Source: Streptomyces spectabilis
GTDB taxonomy: Bacteria > Actinomycetota > Actinomycetes > Streptomycetales > Streptomycetaceae
Assembly: GCF_008704795.1 (NCBI RefSeq)
Contig: NZ_CP023690.1
Span: forward strand, 6,520,501 to 6,584,500
Direction: 5' to 3'
DNA: 64,000 bases
How positions within the stretch are numbered: the first letter of the stretch is position 1; each line of letters begins with the position of its first letter. Below are positions 12,912 to 24,674 of the stretch, one piece after another. Position numbers and translations under genes: made by a program. A model generated the notes under the pieces. It did not search any database. It saw nothing but the letters and a program-made list of their open reading frames with translations, and was not told the origin of the DNA.

Positions 12912-13793
12912 CTACAGCTCTCTGTCTAGTTGGTGCACGAAGTGGGCGGTGTCCTCCGGCGGCAAGGCCGAGGCAACCATGGCGTCGAACCGACGGGTGA
13001 AGCGATCCACCTCGCGCGGCTTGTCCGAGGTGGAGACGGCGCCCCACGCGTTGTCGATCTGTACTCGGGGAGGCAGCTGTTCGCCGAGGTGAAGGAGTGC
13101 GAAGTCGCTCGCGGATCGATAGCCCGTTCGGAACGGCAGCACTTGAATCGTGACATGGCTCCAAGCCGCGAGCTCAGCGATTTTCGCGTACTGCTCGCTC
13201 ATGACGTCGGTGCCTCCGACCGGGTAGCGCAGGGCGGCTTCGCCGAGGATGACGTGGAGCCGTACGGGGTTCTCTCGCGTAAGGATCTCCTGACGCTTCA
13301 TCCGCAACGCCACACTGCTTCGGATGAGTTCGGAGGTGGTCTCCTCGATAGGCTTCTCCACCTCGTGAATGGCCCGTGCGTAGTCTTCCGTCTGCAAGAG
13401 GCCGTAGACGAGCGTGGGATGGTACGCCTTCATGCTGCGGGCCTCGGGTTCCAGGCCGACAAAGCCAGGCATTCCGGCGGGCATGAGCCCGCGGTACTGG
13501 GTCAGCCAATCCTGGCGGGACGACTCGCGGTTGAGGCTGATCAGCGCCTCGATGACGTCCTCGTCGGTGACCCCGTACTTGCCGAGGAGCTTGCGCAGGT
13601 CGCCCACATTGCGGAAGTTCAGATCGCCGTTCTCGATGCGTTGCAGGGATGCCTCGGAGATGCGCAGCCCCTGGGCCGCTTGCCGTCGGGTGAAGCCACC
13701 CCCTCGGTCTCCGAGCCCACAGTTCTCGCGCAACTGCCTCAGTTGAAGTCCGAGTTCCAGCCGCTGAACGGTGCGCCCGCGCTTCGCTGCCAT
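12912..13793 (-). CDS. XRE-family regulator with DUF5753 domain
   Basis: A 293-residue DNA-binding protein. Residues about 12-75 hold the XRE helix-turn-helix (FTRRQAAQGLRISEASLQRIENG), and the remainder is the DUF5753 effector domain, recognisable by GLEPEARSMKAYHPTLVYGLLQTEDYARA and the later ILGEAALRYPVGG. ATG at 13793 is preferred over the GTG two codons earlier. It forms an operon with the DUF397 gene downstream and is divergent from the RsbW-like ATPase gene. Partner and target unknown. Confidence 0.9.
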   Translation of the reverse strand: MAAKRGRTVQRLELGLQLRQLRENCGLGDRGGGFTRRQAAQGLRISEASLQRIENGDLNFRNVGDLRKLLGKYGVTDEDVIEALISLNRESSRQDWLTQYRGLMPAGMPGFVGLEPEARSMKAYHPTLVYGLLQTEDYARAIHEVEKPIEETTSELIRSSVALRMKRQEILTRENPVRLHVILGEAALRYPVGGTDVMSEQYAKIAELAAWSHVTIQVLPFRTGYRSASDFALLHLGEQLPPRVQIDNAWGAVSTSDKPREVDRFTRRFDAMVASALPPEDTAHFVHQLDREL

Positions 13794-13970
13794 GTGCACC
13801 ACCTGTGTGCTGTCGTACGTGTGACTTGGCTTTGCGTGCCGAGTGTGGCAGCGCATACGCGCAGCGCGCAGCCGCTTGTGCAGAACTGGGCATAGTCCAA
13901 TTCGCAGCCTGCTGATTAATCAGTCGGCTTTCGATTGAAGTCGAACGCGCAAGGCGGGGAGCGTGGACCC

Positions 13971-14405
13971 ATGACGAACCCCACGGCACCCCCACCCTCG
14001 GTCCGGCTCGTGCGGGCCTGGGCCACCTCCTACCCCATGACCCCCGCGGCCGCGGGCCTCGCCCGGCAGGGCGCGCGGGGGCGGCTCGCGGCGTGGCGGT
14101 GGGGCGGGGACGTCGACGACGCCGTGCTCGTCGTGTCCGAGCTGGTCGCCAACGCTGCCCGGCACGGGCGCGTCGCGGGGCACTGCCTGTGGCTGCGGCT
14201 CGCCGTGGCGGAGGGCGGATGCCTGGTCGTCGACGTGTCGGACCCGGTGGGGGAGTTCCCGGGCTTCGGGGCGGGAGCCCCGGCGGTCACGGGGGAGGGC
14301 GGCCGGGGCCTGCTCGTCGTACGCGAACTGGCCCAGGACGTGGGCTGGTTCCCGCGCCAGGGCCAGGGAAAGACGGTCCGCGCACTGCTGCCCGGGACGG
14401 GTTGA
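13971..14405 (+). CDS. RsbW-like ATP-binding protein (HATPase_c)
   Basis: A 144-residue stand-alone GHKL ATPase of the anti-sigma-factor/serine kinase type. The N box VSELVANAARHG (residues about 46-57), the G1 box DVSDPVG and the G2 box GGRGLLVVRELA are all present; no other domain is attached. Such proteins are very numerous in streptomycetes and usually act on anti-sigma antagonists or sigma factors, none of which is encoded here. ATG at 13971 follows GGGGAGCG. The gene ends only eight bases before the stop of the convergent XRE-TPR regulator. Confidence 0.85.
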   Translation: MTNPTAPPPSVRLVRAWATSYPMTPAAAGLARQGARGRLAAWRWGGDVDDAVLVVSELVANAARHGRVAGHCLWLRLAVAEGGCLVVDVSDPVGEFPGFGAGAPAVTGEGGRGLLVVRELAQDVGWFPRQGQGKTVRALLPGTG

Positions 14406-14412
14406 GCACGGA

Positions 14413-15804
14413 TCAGGCGGTGACGCCGAGCTCCCTGCGGGTCCGCTGGGCGAACTCGCGCACGGCCGGCTCGCGGCGCCAGGGGGTGAGGGCGGTGTTG
14501 AACTCGCGGACGTAGTCCTTGGCCCTGCTGGACTGGACGCGGGCGAGGATGTCGACGGACCGGTGACCGAGCCGGAGGCCGTGGTCAAGGTCGCGGGCTT
14601 GGAGGTGGGCGGTTCCGACGATGGCGAGCCGCATGCCGACGGAGCGGGTGAACACCCCCGGCTGCATCGCGGCGGCCCGCTGGTTCCAGGCCAGGGCCGC
14701 TTTGGGGTTGTTCAGGTCGCGGAAGACCTCGGAGGCGTCCGCGGACAACCGCGCGTGGTGGTAGAAGTCGATCCATCCGGGCTCGTCGCCGCTGTCCTGA
14801 CGCGCTCGGTCGAGGAGGTCCTCGGAGGAGGCCAGGGCTCGGGAGGCGGCCCGCGCGTCGTTCTCGCGGGCGTGCGCACGGGCTTCGATGAGCTTGGTGA
14901 ACGCCAGCACTCTGGGGGCGGCCCGGTCCCTGGCCCGGCTGAAGGCGCCCTGGGCCATGTCGATGGCTTCGGAGGTGAAGCCGCGCATGAGCGCCTGCAG
15001 GGCCATGGTGGTGAGCACGTAGCAGCCCAGCTGTACGTCACCGCCCGCGCGGGCGAGGCTGAGGGCCTGGATGAAGTGCCGCTGGGCTTCGCTGTGTTCG
15101 CCGATGTCGAAGGCGGTCCACCCGGCCAGGCGGGACAGTTCGGCGGTCACGGAGAACAGTTCACGGCCGACCTCGTCGCTGAAGTCGCCTTGCAGCAGCG
15201 GGCCCGCGCGGTGGTCGAGGCAGGCGGTGACCGAGCTGGCCTTCCAGTTCCCGCCGCCGTAGCGGGAGTCCCAGCGGCGGGCGTCGTCGGCGGCTTCCCG
15301 CAGCTCGTCCAGGTCGGCCCGGCCGACCCGGTGGCTCCCGCGGCGCTCGGCACTGTCGTCGGCGGGGGTGATGAGCCAGCGGGTGACGGGGGTGGCGAAG
15401 GCGGAGGCGGCGAAGCCGGATCCGGCCATGAAGTCGCGGCGGTTCACGGATCTCCAGAACGTGGTGGCGGCGCGCACGGCGCCGGCGGGGTCCCTGGGGA
15501 AATCCAACCCCACATCCGCGTCGATCGCCGTCGGCTCGCCCATGCCGATGTCCGCCAGGGTGACGGGCCGTCCCAGCCTCTCCGCGATGGCCTGCGCCAG
15601 CAGGCGGGGGACCGGCCATTTCGGGGTCATGCCGCGACGGCACCAGTTCGCCACGGACGTGTGTGAGTAGTCGCTCGCCATCCCGGCGGCGTGGGCGAGC
15701 TGGTTGATGCGCAGAGCCAGGGACTTGTGGCTCGCGCCGGAGGCCTCGATGAGCCGGGCCAGGTCCATGTTGGGCGGACGGGCCCGGCGGACGGTCGATG
15801 CCAC
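14413..15804 (-). CDS. XRE-type regulator with TPR-like C-terminal region
   Basis: A 463-residue cytosolic regulator. The N-terminus (about residues 13-60, LIEASGASHKSLALRINQLAHAA then TSVANWCRRGMTPK) is a helix-turn-helix; residues about 190-450 are helical and tetratricopeptide-like (TAFDIGEHSEAQRHFIQALS). Between them, around residue 122, the sequence NRRDFMAGSGFAASAFATP resembles a Tat signal, but its internal position makes export unlikely. I chose GTG at 15804, preceded by GGTGAGG; ATG at 15768 lacks a ribosome site. It is divergent from the amidotransferase cassette and is its most likely regulator. Confidence 0.85.
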   Translation of the reverse strand: MASTVRRARPPNMDLARLIEASGASHKSLALRINQLAHAAGMASDYSHTSVANWCRRGMTPKWPVPRLLAQAIAERLGRPVTLADIGMGEPTAIDADVGLDFPRDPAGAVRAATTFWRSVNRRDFMAGSGFAASAFATPVTRWLITPADDSAERRGSHRVGRADLDELREAADDARRWDSRYGGGNWKASSVTACLDHRAGPLLQGDFSDEVGRELFSVTAELSRLAGWTAFDIGEHSEAQRHFIQALSLARAGGDVQLGCYVLTTMALQALMRGFTSEAIDMAQGAFSRARDRAAPRVLAFTKLIEARAHARENDARAASRALASSEDLLDRARQDSGDEPGWIDFYHHARLSADASEVFRDLNNPKAALAWNQRAAAMQPGVFTRSVGMRLAIVGTAHLQARDLDHGLRLGHRSVDILARVQSSRAKDYVREFNTALTPWRREPAVREFAQRTRRELGVTA

Positions 15805-15933
15805 GACCTCACCCCTTGCCGGTTTCCGGGAAGGCGCCGACTCGCACAGGCGGCGTGCACGAAGAGCCGTACGCACTCCACACGTTGGGTCATCGAGGGT
15901 ATTGCCTGATGGGCCCATGAGGACCGCTTCGCG

Positions 15934-15985
15934 AGTTGTGAGCCCCCCTTGCGAGCCTCCCTCCGTTCGCTGCGGGCAGTTGTGA
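15934..15985. promoter_or_regulatory. Direct repeats in the regulator/amidotransferase intergenic region
   Basis: AGTTGTGA occurs at 15934-15941 and again at 15978-15985, 44 bases apart, about four helical turns. They lie in the 264-bp divergent region between the XRE-TPR regulator and the asparagine-synthetase-like gene. They are candidates for regulator binding; no clear -10/-35 pair was identified. Confidence 0.35.
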
Positions 15986-16068
15986 TGAGGGTCCGGGCCG
16001 CCGCCGGACGGATCACTCTTCGGTGGCGGCCGCCACGGCACCACCACGCCACCGGGAGTGACCCAGAC

Positions 16069-17835
16069 ATGTGTGGAATCGCGGGCCTGGCCGGAGCCGA
16101 TGCCGCCCGGCATGCCCTGACCGTCGAGGCCATGGGCGCCTCGCAGGCCCACCGCGGTCCGGACGGCACCCTGCACGCCGTCGGCCGGGACAGGCGGGCG
16201 GTGCTGTCCATGAACACGCTGCTGATCGCCAACCCGCAGGCGACACCCGGCCCCTACCTCGACCACGCGTCCGGGGTGCTGCTGGCCTTCAACGGGGAGA
16301 TCTACAACTACCGGCAGCAGGCCAAGGCCTGGGGCATCCGCCTTGACGACTGCGACAGCGATGCGCACGTGCTGCTGCGGGCCTGGATGAAGATCGGCCC
16401 GTCCTGCCTGGAGGCGCTGGACGGCATGTTCGCCCTGGCCGTCCACGACCCCCGCGCCGGGAAGCTGTTCCTCGCGCGGGACCGGCTGGGGGAGAAGCCG
16501 CTCTACTGGCGACTGGACGGCGGTCGCCTGGCCTTCGCCTCCGAGGTCACCACTCTGACCGGCTACGGACCGGCCCCGCTGGTGCTGCGCCCGGAGATGC
16601 TGGGGGTCGAGACGCCGACCGGTGTCGACACTCCGTTCCAGGGCGTTCAACTGCTGGCCCCCGCGGCGCTGCTGACGTTCGATGTCGCCACCGGCTCCTT
16701 GACGCAGACCACCTGGTGGTCCCTGTCCGGCTGCGAGCCCTTCGAGGGCACCTACCAACAGGCCCTGGCGACCCTCTCCACCCTGCTGTTCGAACAGATC
16801 CCGCTCAGGGCTCCGGCCGGCGACTTCGCGCTGCTCCTTTCGGGCGGCCTCGACTCGGCCGTGCTGGCCCACCTGATGCGGCCGCCGGTCTGCGTCACCA
16901 TCCGCTACCCGGGCCAGGACCGCCTGGACGAGTCGCGGACCGCCGCGATGATCGCGCGGGACGTCGGCGCCGAACTGGTGGTGGTCGAACCCGGCCCGAC
17001 CGACTTCGCCACCGCCCTGCCCCACATGACGCGCGCGCTGGACTACCCGATGGGAAACGCGTCCACGTTCTCCGAGTACATGGCCTACCGGAAGATCGCC
17101 GGTCTCGGCCTTCGGGTGGTCACCGGCGGGCTCGGACCGGACGAGTTCTTGATGGGCTACGTCCGCCATGCCCTGGTCCTCTTCGGCGCTGATGCGGTTC
17201 TGGGGGCCGGGATGGATGCCTACCGACCGCTCGCGGCCAAGCTCACGCACACCGCCGGTCAGGACCTGGAGCCGGCCGAGGCCCTGACCCGGCTCGTCCT
17301 GCGCGGCCCCGACCCCGACGGCCGCGTCCGCGACCTGATCACCACGGCCATGGACGGGGCGGGCGGGGACCTGACCCGCGCCCTCACGCTGGCCGATCTG
17401 GCGACGGCCTGGCGGCCGCTGGTGCTGACCAGCGACAAGCTCGCCTCCGCCCACGCCCTCGAACGCAGGTCCCCCTACCTGGCCCGCGACGTGGTGGAGC
17501 TGTCCTATCGCCTTCCGGAGCAGTACAAGATCCGCCATCCCGCGCAGGGCAAGCGGATCCTGCGGGATGTGGCGAAGGCCCTCGGCCTGCCGCGGGAGGT
17601 CTGGGACAGCCGGGACAAGCTCGGCTTCGCCAGCCCCGTCCCGGCCTGGCTGACCGGCCCCCTCGCGGCTTGGGCAGACGCGCGGATCCACACCGCGCTG
17701 GTCGAGGCTCCCCTCTCGCTGAGGCCGCTGCTGGAGGCCGGGCTCAAGCGCGGGGGCCGCTTCGACCGCACCCGGACGCAGGCCCTTATGGCAGCGGCCT
17801 GGATTGCGGACCGAGCGGTGAGGGACGCCGCGTGA
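16069..17835 (+). CDS. Asparagine-synthetase-like glutamine amidotransferase
   Basis: A two-domain enzyme of 588 residues. The glutaminase domain starts with catalytic Cys2 (MCGIAGLAG) and has HRGPDG, FNGEIYNY and ARDRLGEKPLYW; the synthetase domain has the ATP PP-loop SGGLDS at 258-263 and KLGFASPVPAWL near the C-terminus. The motif that reads GEGSDE in E. coli AsnB reads GLGPDE here (354-359), so the general-base Glu is Leu355, which argues against ordinary asparagine synthesis. AsnB-like enzymes such as WbpS and MoeF amidate uronic acids. With a nucleotide-sugar dehydrogenase two genes downstream, I infer a sugar carboxylate as substrate. ATG at 16069 follows GGGAG. Confidence 0.88.
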   Translation: MCGIAGLAGADAARHALTVEAMGASQAHRGPDGTLHAVGRDRRAVLSMNTLLIANPQATPGPYLDHASGVLLAFNGEIYNYRQQAKAWGIRLDDCDSDAHVLLRAWMKIGPSCLEALDGMFALAVHDPRAGKLFLARDRLGEKPLYWRLDGGRLAFASEVTTLTGYGPAPLVLRPEMLGVETPTGVDTPFQGVQLLAPAALLTFDVATGSLTQTTWWSLSGCEPFEGTYQQALATLSTLLFEQIPLRAPAGDFALLLSGGLDSAVLAHLMRPPVCVTIRYPGQDRLDESRTAAMIARDVGAELVVVEPGPTDFATALPHMTRALDYPMGNASTFSEYMAYRKIAGLGLRVVTGGLGPDEFLMGYVRHALVLFGADAVLGAGMDAYRPLAAKLTHTAGQDLEPAEALTRLVLRGPDPDGRVRDLITTAMDGAGGDLTRALTLADLATAWRPLVLTSDKLASAHALERRSPYLARDVVELSYRLPEQYKIRHPAQGKRILRDVAKALGLPREVWDSRDKLGFASPVPAWLTGPLAAWADARIHTALVEAPLSLRPLLEAGLKRGGRFDRTRTQALMAAAWIADRAVRDAA

Positions 17836-17863
17836 TCATCAACTGCCTCACTACGGTGACCGG

Positions 17864-18301
17864 ATGCACCAAGACATCACCCCGGCCCCGGAGCCGTCCA
17901 CCGCCCGCGGAGCGGTCGCGATCATCACCAACCGCCGTGGCGAACTCCTCCTCCATCTGCGCGACGACCTGCCGCACATCGCCTGGCCCCACCACTGGAG
18001 CCTGCTGGGCGGCGGGACCGACCCGGGCGAGAGCCCGGCCGAGACGATCGTCCGCGAACTGGACGAGGAAGCCGGCCTGGCTGCCGAGGAGCTGACCGAG
18101 CTCTTCGAGATCCGTGACGAGCACGGCTCCGGCCAGACCCTCACCGTCTTCGCCGCCCACTGGGACGGCGACGAGAGGCAGTTGCCGCTGGCCGAAGGCG
18201 TCAAGCTCCAGTTCTTCGCCCCCGAGCACCTCGACATCCTCACCATCCCCCCGTTCATCAGGGACGCGATCCACCGCCATACGGCCGCTGAGCCCGCCTG
18301 A
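17864..18301 (+). CDS. NUDIX hydrolase
   Basis: A 145-residue hydrolase of nucleoside diphosphates linked to another group. The Nudix box is intact (GGTDPGESPAETIVRELDEE followed by AGL), with the metal-binding glutamates in REL.EE. The gene starts 28 bases after the amidotransferase stop and precedes the sugar dehydrogenase, so a nucleotide-sugar or a nucleotide by-product is a plausible substrate. An alternative is a housecleaning role such as oxidised-nucleotide removal. The ATG at 17864 is preceded by GGTGACC, a weak ribosome site. Confidence 0.9.
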   Translation: MHQDITPAPEPSTARGAVAIITNRRGELLLHLRDDLPHIAWPHHWSLLGGGTDPGESPAETIVRELDEEAGLAAEELTELFEIRDEHGSGQTLTVFAAHWDGDERQLPLAEGVKLQFFAPEHLDILTIPPFIRDAIHRHTAAEPA

Positions 18302-18309
18302 CTCTGCCT

Positions 18310-18341
18310 CTGGTGGGGTCGTCCGGGGGCGGCCCCACCAG
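18310..18341 (+). promoter_or_regulatory. Hairpin between NUDIX and sugar dehydrogenase genes
   Basis: CTGGTGGGG (18310-18318) and CCCCACCAG (18333-18341) form a perfect nine-base-pair stem with a 14-base loop. The descending arm ends at the first base of the GAAGGA ribosome site of the next gene, so the structure could attenuate transcription or modulate its translation. Confidence 0.5.
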
Positions 18342-18353
18342 AAGGACACCTCT

Positions 18354-19673
18354 GTGAAGCTCACCGTGATCGGCTGCGGCTACCTCGGCGCCACCCACGC
18401 GGCCTGCATGGCCGAACTCGGCCACGAAGTACTGGGCGTGGAAGCCGACCTGGACAAGGTCGCGATCCTCAACTCCGGCAGGGCCCCCTTCCACGAACGC
18501 GACCTCGACGGCCTCCTGGCCGAGCACACCGCCAGCGGACGCCTGACGTTCACCGCCTCCTGCGCGGAAGCTGCCGAGTTCGCCGACCTGCACTTCATCG
18601 CTGTCGGCACCCCGCAGCGGCCCGACGGCGCCGGCTACGACCTCACCCAGCTCTTCACAGCCGTTCGCCGGCTCGCCCCCCGGCTCACAGCCCCGGCGGT
18701 GGTCGCCGTCAAGTCCACCGTCCCGGTCGGCACCGCTCCGCGCGTCCGCGACCTGCTGCACGCGTACGCACCCGCCGGAGACGCGGTCGAGGTCGCCTGG
18801 AACCCGGAGTTCCTGCGCGAGTCGTGCGCCGTCGAGGACACTCTCCGCCCCGACCGGCTCGTCCTCGGCTTCCCCGCCGAGCACTCCTGGGCCGAGACCG
18901 TGCTGCGGCAGTGCTACAGCGAGATCATCGAAGCGGGAACGCCGACGATCACCACCGACTGGGCCACCGCCGAGCTCGCCAAGGGCGCCGCGAACTCCTT
19001 CCTAGCCACGAAGATCTCCTTCATCAACGCGATGGCTGAGGTCTGCGAAGCCTCCGGCGCTGACGTCGCCCAGCTCGCCGACATCCTCGGACACGACATC
19101 CGCATCGGTCCCCGCGGCATGCGGCCCGGCCTCGGCTTCGGCGGCGGCTGCCTGCCCAAGGACCTCGCGGGCTTCATCGCCCGCGCCGACGAACTCGACG
19201 CTGCCGCAGCCGTCGGCATCCTCCGCGAAGCCGCCGCAGTCAACGCCCGTCGCCGCCGACGTGTCGTCGACCTCGCCCGCGAAGAGCTCGGCACCGACTT
19301 GCGAGGCAAGCGGATCACGATGTGGGGCGCGGCCTTCAAACCCGAGACCGACGACATCCGCGACTCGCCCGCCCTCGCCGTCGCCCAGGTCCTCCACGAC
19401 CTCGGCGCCACTGTCACCGTCACCGACCCCGAAGCCCTCGACAACGCGCGCAAGCTTCATCCCGAACTCGACTACGCCGAGGACCCGGTCGACGCCGTCC
19501 AGGATGCCGACCTGCTGTTGCACCTGACCGAATGGCCGCATTACTCCCGCATCGATCCCCAGCGGCTCACCGGCCGCGCCGTGAGCTCCACGGTCATCGA
19601 CGGTCGCGGCACCTTGGACGCCCACCGCTGGAGCGAAGCGGGATGGACCGTCCGAGCCCTCGGCCGCCCCTGA
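18354..19673 (+). CDS. UDP-glucose/GDP-mannose dehydrogenase family enzyme
   Basis: NAD-dependent four-electron oxidation of a nucleotide hexose to the hexuronic acid. The 439-residue protein has the Rossmann motif GCGYLGATHAAC at residues 7-18, the substrate loop NPEFLRESCAVEDTLRPDR, the helix AELAKGAANSFLATKISFIN, and catalytic Cys266 in GFGGGCLPKD, so it looks fully active. Whether the sugar is UDP-glucose, UDP-GlcNAc/ManNAc or GDP-mannose is not determinable. GTG at 18354 follows GAAGGA. Third gene of the amidotransferase cassette, ending convergent to tetR. Confidence 0.92.
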   Translation: MKLTVIGCGYLGATHAACMAELGHEVLGVEADLDKVAILNSGRAPFHERDLDGLLAEHTASGRLTFTASCAEAAEFADLHFIAVGTPQRPDGAGYDLTQLFTAVRRLAPRLTAPAVVAVKSTVPVGTAPRVRDLLHAYAPAGDAVEVAWNPEFLRESCAVEDTLRPDRLVLGFPAEHSWAETVLRQCYSEIIEAGTPTITTDWATAELAKGAANSFLATKISFINAMAEVCEASGADVAQLADILGHDIRIGPRGMRPGLGFGGGCLPKDLAGFIARADELDAAAAVGILREAAAVNARRRRRVVDLAREELGTDLRGKRITMWGAAFKPETDDIRDSPALAVAQVLHDLGATVTVTDPEALDNARKLHPELDYAEDPVDAVQDADLLLHLTEWPHYSRIDPQRLTGRAVSSTVIDGRGTLDAHRWSEAGWTVRALGRP

Positions 19674-22256: not shown

Positions 22257-24674
22257 ATGGAAACGGGAAGGCCGGGGCCCGCGGGTGTCCGCTGGATGCT
22301 CGGCGGCGGCGTGGTGGTCCTGGTCGCCGGGTGCCTCTGGGCAGGCTGGTCCGTGTCCCGCGGCGGGCTCCAACCCCAGGACGTGTCAGGGGTGTTGGGG
22401 CTGCCCGTCGGCATTCTCGGCGTCCTCGTCGGCGCCGCCGTCAGCCTCAGCGCGCTGCGCCTGCAGCAGGCGACGGACGCCCGGGCCGTCGCGCTCGACG
22501 GGCTCGCCGCGACCGTCGAGGAGATCGAGGTCGCCGAGCGCGCGCACATGCTCGGCAACGGCGCGCACCTGATCGACCTGCGCGTCGAGGTCACCCCCCG
22601 GCAGGGCGGCACCGAACCGCCGGGACCGCAGCGGCTCTCCGACGTGGCGGCCTGGTACTGCGCCGCGCCGGGCCGCCTCGTCGTCACCGGGGCGCCCGGC
22701 GGCGGGAAGACGGTCTTCGCCGTGCACCTGGTCGTCCGGCTGCTCGCCGCGCGCGGGCCCGCGGACCCGGTGCCCGTGCGGCTCGCCATCGGGGACCTGC
22801 CCGCGCCCCGCACCCACCGGCGCTGGTGGGGCCGCTGGCGCACGGTGGGCGGCTTCGAACGCTGGCTGACGAACAGCCTGGTCAAGGTGTACCGGCTGCG
22901 GGAGCGCACCGCCGCGGACCTCGTCGCGCGGCGCCTCGTCATCCCCGTACTGGACGGGCTCGACGAGATGGACACGGAGGTCGAAGGGGATGCGCCGAGC
23001 CGGGCGCAGCAGGCCCTCGACGAGCTGAACGCCTACGAGTCCGTGGACGGCAGCGCGCCCGTCGTCCTGACCTGCCGCGAGCAGCGGTACGCGGAGCTGT
23101 CCGAACGCTACGCCTGGCTGCGGCAGTCGGCGCTGCTGCGGATCGCGGGCGTCGAGGCCGACGAGGCCCGCCGCTACGTCGAGTCCCGGTCCGACGGCCG
23201 GGGCTCGCCGCTGGACGCGCTGCTCGAGGGCGCGGGCGAGGCCGTGGCCCAGGCGCTCAGCTCGCCGTTCTACCTGGGGCTCGCGTACGCGGTGTACGGG
23301 GAGGCGGGGCGGGGCCAGGCCCAGCCGCCGACGGACCTCGGAACGGCGGACGAGGTCCGGGAGCACCTCCTGGCCCACTACATCCCGGCGGCGACGCGGG
23401 CCGCGAACGCGGCGGCGCGGCAGGCGCGGCGGCGCGTCGTCGCGACGGAGTCGCCCTGGGGCCGTCAGGGGGAGTACGAGCCCGCGCGTGTGCATCAGTG
23501 GTTGCACCACATGGCGGGGGAGGAGGGGAGGCTGTCGTCGCTCGGCCAGGCCCTCGGGGTGACCAGGGCGCGCGTGCTCGGGGGTGTGGTCATGGCGCTG
23601 CTGGTCGGGGCGGCGCTTATGTGGGGTCAGGCCGTGCAAAGGCTCTTCCCCGCCCGCTGGTGGGATCACGAGCACGGTGTCGTGGTGTCCGTGGCTGTGG
23701 CCGCGGTGGTGGGGGCGCTCGCCGGGGCCCTGTTCGTGATGGCGGTGTCCGACGAGATGGCCTTCACGCCGACGGACGAGGTGCGCGGCGTCCGCGCGAG
23801 CCTGAGGAGTCGGCTGGGCCGGGCCGCCGCACAGTGGGCAGAGATCGCTTCCTGGACCCTCCTGCTGCCGGGCATGCTCGTCCTGGGGGCCACGAGCCGC
23901 GTCGCGGGCTGGCTGGAGTGGGCCCCGGAGCACGCGTTGTACGGAGTGGGCGCCGTCGTCGGCTTCAGCTGCTGCGTGGGGATCGCGGCCAGCGAGTCCA
24001 CGGTCGCTCACAAGGACGTCCCCAGCCTCCTCGGGTGCTTGCTGACGCCCCCGATCGGCTGGTTGCTCGGGGCCCTGACGCCGGAGGCCGAGAGCTTGCC
24101 GGGGCGCGTGATCGCCTACGCCGCGATCTGGGGTTTCGGCGTTCTCCTGGTGGGCTGGACCGGCGCCACGGGCTTTTCCTTCGCGGTGGGGTTCGGCATG
24201 TACCTGGTGGCGGCATGGCCCGGAACAGCAGGGCCCGGCGGCGGGTTCTGGGGCGGCGTCGGAGCCGGGCTCATCGCCTTCTACGTGCTGGGCTGTCTGT
24301 TCCTCGGCGCGGGCTCCGCCGAGCGGACCTGGCGGGGCGTGGGGCGCGTGCGGCGAGTGATGCGCCTGCCCACGTGGCTCAGGATGGTGCTCATCCCGTT
24401 CATCCTGGGCGTGGTGGGGGAGGAGTTGCTCGGATTGGCCGGGGTGGTCGGCGTGGCCATGGTGTGGGTCGCGGCGAGCGCGGCTCTGCTGCTCGCCATT
24501 CTGCTGGTGGGGCTGGTCGCGGTCTGCCTGGGCCGCATCCCGCTCCACACCGACGCCTTCACCACCTGGGCCTACCACGCGGGCCTGCTCCGCATCGTCG
24601 GCGGCGACTACCAGTTCCGCCACAGCGAGCTGCACGCCTGGCTGGTGCGCAACCCCCGCGCCCCCGCCCCCTGA
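22257..24674 (+). CDS. Membrane-anchored NACHT-type NTPase
   Basis: An 805-residue STAND-type NTPase. Two N-terminal membrane segments (about 14-33 and 47-66) precede a NACHT-like domain with Walker A GAPGGGKT at 145-152 and Walker B VLDGLDEM at about 232-239, where the extra acidic residues are typical of NACHT. From about residue 440 onward there are many more hydrophobic segments, predicted to form a polytopic membrane domain. No sensor repeats or nuclease effector domain are visible. Bacterial NACHT proteins often act in anti-phage defence, with the C-terminus as sensor, but membrane NACHT proteins of streptomycetes are largely uncharacterised. The ATG at 22257 has only a weak ribosome site. 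Confidence 0.85.
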   Translation: METGRPGPAGVRWMLGGGVVVLVAGCLWAGWSVSRGGLQPQDVSGVLGLPVGILGVLVGAAVSLSALRLQQATDARAVALDGLAATVEEIEVAERAHMLGNGAHLIDLRVEVTPRQGGTEPPGPQRLSDVAAWYCAAPGRLVVTGAPGGGKTVFAVHLVVRLLAARGPADPVPVRLAIGDLPAPRTHRRWWGRWRTVGGFERWLTNSLVKVYRLRERTAADLVARRLVIPVLDGLDEMDTEVEGDAPSRAQQALDELNAYESVDGSAPVVLTCREQRYAELSERYAWLRQSALLRIAGVEADEARRYVESRSDGRGSPLDALLEGAGEAVAQALSSPFYLGLAYAVYGEAGRGQAQPPTDLGTADEVREHLLAHYIPAATRAANAAARQARRRVVATESPWGRQGEYEPARVHQWLHHMAGEEGRLSSLGQALGVTRARVLGGVVMALLVGAALMWGQAVQRLFPARWWDHEHGVVVSVAVAAVVGALAGALFVMAVSDEMAFTPTDEVRGVRASLRSRLGRAAAQWAEIASWTLLLPGMLVLGATSRVAGWLEWAPEHALYGVGAVVGFSCCVGIAASESTVAHKDVPSLLGCLLTPPIGWLLGALTPEAESLPGRVIAYAAIWGFGVLLVGWTGATGFSFAVGFGMYLVAAWPGTAGPGGGFWGGVGAGLIAFYVLGCLFLGAGSAERTWRGVGRVRRVMRLPTWLRMVLIPFILGVVGEELLGLAGVVGVAMVWVAASAALLLAILLVGLVAVCLGRIPLHTDAFTTWAYHAGLLRIVGGDYQFRHSELHAWLVRNPRAPAP

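Follow-up and report, generated by a model that had tools for sequence, protein, structure and literature searches.

We found that a 64,000-nucleotide stretch of Streptomyces spectabilis contig NZ_CP023690.1 (hereafter the window, meaning the whole stretch analysed) carries a four-gene cassette that is a real, dedicated unit in a minority of Streptomyces. It consists of an NsdA-family regulator gene divergent from genes for an AsnB-like class II amidotransferase/ATP pyrophosphatase (AmT), a NUDIX hydrolase, and a nucleoside diphosphate (NDP)-sugar 6-dehydrogenase of the uridine diphosphate (UDP)-glucose type. The cassette is horizontally mobile and self-contained, and we read it, with a little less than even confidence, as a mobile metabolite cassette in which UDP-glucuronate would be amidated and the NUDIX enzyme would release a uronamide. 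The initial annotation of this DNA had proposed a uronamide-forming cassette, an interpretation that our results partly support.

The enzyme genes lie in tandem on the forward strand: AmT at 16069-17835 (588 amino acids, ATG start, beginning MCGIAG), NUDIX at 17864-18301 (145 amino acids), and the dehydrogenase at 18354-19673 (439 amino acids, GTG start). The gaps between them, 28 and 52 bases, are short in most relatives as well. The regulator gene occupies 14413-15804 on the reverse strand (463 amino acids), leaving an intergenic stretch at 15805-16068; we place its start at the GTG at 15804 because the conserved N-terminus of its relatives (VAST...RPPN) begins there. Pfam domains over cut-off were Asn_synthase and GATase_7 in AmT, NUDIX in the hydrolase (PF00293, 61 bits versus 21.1), and all three UDPG_MGDP_dh domains in the dehydrogenase. 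These coordinates, together with the Pfam and NCBIfam models, confirm the annotated layout of three closely spaced genes facing a divergent regulator.

Occurrence and mobility of the cassette

Of 295 Streptomyces genomes, 13 carried AmT, and a class-wide sample of 394 genomes contained 3 carriers; the S. spectabilis genome is counted in both. In a 121-genome Streptomyces sample, AmT had seven carriers (S. spectabilis, G014, G022, G025, G049, G067, and G114), and relatives with at least 75% identity to NUDIX, 78% to the dehydrogenase, and 80% to the regulator were confined to these same seven; the next-best relatives reached 51%, 62%, and 59%, respectively. The G114 cassette is spread across contigs, and its AmT match is limited to residues 1-232, in a stretch with stops. 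The lone partial exception is G007, which is without AmT and has a 74% identical regulator copy covering residues 135-463 only. Apart from this copy, the regulator is as dedicated as had been suggested. The G007 copy (L193, 7930-9175; 74-76% identical over residues 135-463) may be the remnant of a lost cassette, since a weak N-terminal piece adjoins it and the genome has no AmT.

A search for AmT loci gave 80; 46 of these (L058-L103), distant relatives with 24-35% identity, were excluded from cassette counts. Our set of 35 comprised 34 named loci and L141, and a cassette was called complete when each gene was one segment with at least 85% coverage. We found complete four-gene cassettes at 23 of the 35 loci, 22 of which were retained as distinct, since L033 is the second cassette of a genome already counted. 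Hence, the cassette is not a chance arrangement, and the co-conservation presupposed by the initial annotation is borne out. L141 belongs to a different family of the class and retains the full gene order at 51-66% identity. Protein distances of the four genes correlate, with Spearman coefficients of 0.74-0.85 (23 sequences) or 0.66-0.81 without L141, and none of 999 Mantel shuffles matched any of these correlations; such agreement is expected for any co-inherited genes.

The other 12 loci depart from completeness in different ways. L032 is cut by a contig end, L035 and L036 are without NUDIX, L042 has its regulator in two pieces, and five (L049, L050, L052, L054, and L056) are partial or broken. 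The remaining three (L047, L048, and L057), two from Actinomadura and one from Actinoallomurus, carry AmT and NUDIX only. Because these three keep the pair with no linked dehydrogenase, AmT and NUDIX appear to form the core; however, NUDIX has been lost at two Streptomyces loci.

AmT was found on 9 of 72,556 plasmid records, all nine from Streptomyces. The four plasmids examined are all linear, and each carries the four cassette genes among different neighbours. In S. cyaneochromogenes, the cassette lies about 60-70 kilobases from both chromosome ends. The copy on pFRL6 (L187, 7245-12562) is probably decayed, since its regulator and dehydrogenase are each matched in two pieces.

In the window, the cassette is flanked by TetR and MFS genes on one side and XRE-DUF5753 and ATPase genes on the other, none of which travels with it. 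Membership of a larger cluster was not supported: searching for these four neighbours at 34 loci gave only weak XRE matches (28-36%) at three of them, and the plasmid neighbours differ. That no recurring extra gene was found in these comparisons supports the description as a minimal module.

The regulator and its candidate operator

The regulator scores 410 bits against the NsdA-family subfamily model NF053720 (cut-off 75). Unlike NsdA and NsdB, it falls below both of their models (179.8 versus 830 for NsdA, NF050130; 132 versus 700 for NsdB) and heads a metabolic cassette. In the S. spectabilis genome, 18 matches to the NsdA family exceed the cut-off; two of them may be parts of a single gene. 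The gene had been labelled an XRE-TPR regulator; it is a real NsdA-family gene, but the label comes from the NCBIfam name, as Pfam gave no domain in this protein.

To align the regulator-AmT intergenic region, 27 loci were tried, of which 21 were alignable with the window; in the other six, the regulator start was not located. We found a strongly conserved block, GYGAGTTGYGAGCCCC..TGYGAGC, common to the 21 loci and the window, with more changes in L046. The window copy, GCGAGTTGTGAGCCCCCCTTGCGAGC, lies at 15931-15956 on the forward strand, repeats GYGAG, and includes an additional base. A gapped version of the pattern matched the 9.8 Mb S. spectabilis genome once, at this site, and a reversed control gave no match; the ungapped form with 3 mismatches allowed had no match in this genome.

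In a scan of loci with the ungapped form, allowing up to 5 substitutions (at most 4 were seen), the element was present at 28 of the 34 named loci and absent from all 18 other loci scanned. It is missing from six named loci, namely the three AmT-NUDIX loci and three partial ones (L050, L052, and L054). The corresponding gap of L141 contains repeated GTGAGC. A similar TGAGCCCCCTTCGTGAGC occurs at L195, where a sister NsdA-type gene (55% identity) faces an aminotransferase, whereas the sister loci L191 and L192 do not show the element. We infer that the GYGAG element is the operator of the regulator, which would repress the operon through the repeats between the divergent genes. A scan for promoters (sigma-70 consensus only) and terminators found nothing. 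At loci reduced to AmT and NUDIX, the two Actinomadura pairs face a different XRE regulator, and the Actinoallomurus pair has an MFS-type gene immediately upstream on the same strand.

The enzymes and a possible uronamide pathway

The dehydrogenase scores 386.5 bits against the nucleotide sugar dehydrogenase model TIGR03026 (cut-off 189.8) and has the catalytic Cys motif. Its closest relative in the PDB is a UDP-glucose dehydrogenase (E 1e-95, compared with E 1e-47 for GDP-mannose dehydrogenase), in keeping with the hexuronate-type enzyme annotated initially. The active-site motif G[FY]GGGCLPKD is present in 23/23 cassette copies and the NAD motif is retained; a stricter lysine-region pattern matched 15 of the 23. 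The protein scores under the AglM and TuaD equivalog cut-offs, though its PDB neighbours are UDP-glucose enzymes. S. spectabilis has a second dehydrogenase copy (55% identity), and a dehydrogenase was matched at an E value of 1e-80 or better in each of the 15 genomes checked, including the three without a linked copy.

The NUDIX protein has a complete Nudix box in the window and in all 23 cassette copies aligned. Its closest relatives outside the cassette are 46-51% identical, and in 8 of 10 sequences the match is, by eye, the middle of three NUDIX-like stretches. These Streptomyces proteins (L118-L125, L134, and L138) are about 500 amino acids long and apparently consist of three tandem NUDIX stretches, the middle one nearest to the cassette NUDIX. 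In 16 neighbourhoods of NUDIX relatives, neither AmT nor the cassette dehydrogenase was matched, and these relatives, generic or tandem, do not reveal the substrate. As for a role in anti-phage defence, when the four cassette proteins were compared with PADLOC models of defence systems, NUDIX alone matched, weakly (one candidate model, PDC-S07, 37 bits).

AmT copies form a long-stemmed clade with an intact catalytic core, as in class II (N-terminal nucleophile, Ntn) enzymes: of the 109 copies that have a residue at position 2, 107 have Cys, N75 is present in 123/124, E77 in 122/124, and D98 in 124/124, and the SGG-DS and DE motifs are each retained in at least 122 of 124. A structure model from a narrow alignment gave a predicted local distance difference test (pLDDT) score of 56, and the model was remade with 45 more diverse sequences. 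AsnB-like WbpS/WbqG enzymes are proposed or genetically shown to convert a sugar uronate to its amide, and one such precedent, Helicobacter pullorum wbpO/wbpS, adjoins a sugar dehydrogenase gene (PMC7468200, PMC6025236); the former paper places WbpS in the TIGR03108 (eps_aminotran_1) family. These enzymes, which serve O-antigen, a type IX secretion system linking sugar, and the H. pullorum N-glycan, are AsnB-related like AmT. However, AmT scores only 183.3 bits against the TIGR03108 cut-off of 816.9, its pocket residues differ from those of 30 aligned relatives, and its cassette has NUDIX and NsdA-family partners with no polysaccharide genes seen. The distant relatives L058, L067, and L062 also miss this cut-off, at 526-566. 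The WbpS likeness that had been proposed can therefore hold in function but not in family.

Based on these protein families and the WbpS precedent, the following steps are proposed. The dehydrogenase would convert UDP-glucose to UDP-glucuronate, and the ATP pyrophosphatase domain of AmT would adenylate the C6 carboxylate of this product. Ammonia freed in the N-terminal Ntn domain would then displace AMP to give UDP-glucuronamide, and NUDIX would split the pyrophosphate, yielding UMP and uronamide-1-phosphate; a small uronamide would thereby leave the pathway. By analogy, a uronamide is a plausible product of the cassette.

Several results weigh against this pathway, and the strongest against a routine reading is in the donor pocket. 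The glutamine-contacting Arg (Arg49 of asparagine synthetase B) is present in 0/124 AmT members compared, and a nearby Glu is replaced by His in 123/124 (T50 and H100 in the window), whereas both residues are retained in 30/30 distant relatives aligned. Hence, glutamine as the ammonia source is not assured, and its use, implied in the initial annotation, cannot be assumed. In addition, the dehydrogenase is missing beside the AmT-NUDIX pair at three loci, and NUDIX is missing at L035 and L036, where regulator, AmT, and dehydrogenase are kept with about 265-280 bases between the latter two. NUDIX itself is MutT-like. Among curated models it matches general MutT/Nudix families best, in every case below cut-off, and outside the cassette it is most similar to domains of tandem-NUDIX proteins rather than to known UDP-sugar hydrolases. 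Finally, no glycosyltransferase, phosphatase, or exporter was seen travelling with the cassette (four neighbour genes searched; flanks inspected by eye at seven loci).

The lost Arg raises the alternative that AmT uses an NDP-uronate with a donor other than L-glutamine, such as another amide, an amine, or a hydroxylamine-type carrier, yielding a substituted uronamide. We consider this rather unlikely, since Cys2, N75, E77, and D98 are nearly invariant, as in glutamine use, and another residue, for example R82 (118/124 copies), might substitute for the Arg. The hydroxyamidotransferase TsnB9 (PDB 7ylz), to which AmT is 22% identical, itself retains in the alignment the Arg that AmT has lost.

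The loci without a linked dehydrogenase favor another explanation, in which AmT amidates a small non-sugar carboxylate and the dehydrogenase supplies UDP-glucuronate for a separate purpose or a later conjugate. Consistent with this, the synthetase domain of AmT departs at many positions fixed in distant relatives, including E to Y at 326, G to P at 357, and K to T at 454. However, the dehydrogenase accompanies AmT in 7/7 carriers of the 121-genome sample, and all three genomes with the unaccompanied pair carry dehydrogenases elsewhere, so we regard this explanation as unlikely.

The public annotation of AmT (asparagine synthetase B or asparagine synthase-related) would make it an ordinary asparagine synthetase carried by a mobile element; this reading is most improbable and was rejected: AmT misses the asparagine synthase cut-off of TIGR01536, if narrowly (246.6 versus 267.1; 244.6 for L141), S. 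spectabilis has 8 further Asn_synthase-domain matches, and, relative to Escherichia coli asparagine synthetase B (1ct9), AmT has not only R49 to T and E100 to H but also E348 to L. The E348-equivalent is Leu in 122/124 AmT copies; this change alone is weak evidence because Asp occupies the position in 29 of 30 distant relatives. By model score, the initial annotation is supported in setting AmT apart from standard asparagine synthetases.

Sister gene sets and implications

We examined four sister NsdA-family genes (53-59% identity), three of which are divergent from other small gene sets. The sister regulator at L192 (1525-8832) faces genes for a dTDP-sugar epimerase, dTDP-glucose 4,6-dehydratase, and an ATP-grasp protein; that at L191 (3337-8638) faces weak phosphoesterase, TauD, and dCTP deaminase-like genes; and that at L195 (7258-12452) faces a class III aminotransferase gene. 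The neighbours of the fourth, L194, share its strand. These four sisters, which do not amount to a survey, are a hint that small cassettes headed by NsdA-family genes may form a class.

Elsewhere in the S. spectabilis genome, at 4.74 Mb (L172, 7324-11608), an NsdA-family gene faces a second AsnB-like gene (724 amino acids); this regulator is of a type, 46-48% identical, that is matched in most of the 121 genomes. In the window, the XRE-DUF5753 regulator gene adjoins an HATPase_c_2 gene at 12912-14405, and the same pair occurs near L195 (2465-4128; 47% and 38%). A large open reading frame at 22257-24674, with a P-loop-like GAPGGGKT and many hydrophobic segments, resembles, by eye, a NACHT-type membrane NTPase.

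A more speculative and distinctly unlikely scenario is that the AmT clade, with Arg to Thr and Glu to His both changed in the donor pocket but the Cys nucleophile retained, has abandoned L-glutamine and, with NUDIX, makes a substituted uronamide. This would be released as a small, diffusible signal or antimetabolite sensed by the NsdA-type regulator, and the cassette would belong to a family of small, mobile NsdA-paralogue cassettes.

Within the literature searched, we did not find the cassette described. With the terms used, no description was found of NUDIX, asparagine synthetase, and sugar dehydrogenase (or UDP-glucose) together in Streptomyces, and no mention of UDP-glucuronamide under that wording. 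Among the matches listed for glucuronamide in the Streptomyces biosynthesis literature, species or strain descriptions predominate.

Being small, co-inherited, plasmid-borne, and scaffold-free, the cassette is transferable to laboratory Streptomyces, where its product could be searched for directly. It would test the purpose of an NsdA-family regulator and would provide a pathway to free sugar amides outside polysaccharides; AmT would show whether an AsnB-type enzyme works without the glutamine-contacting arginine.

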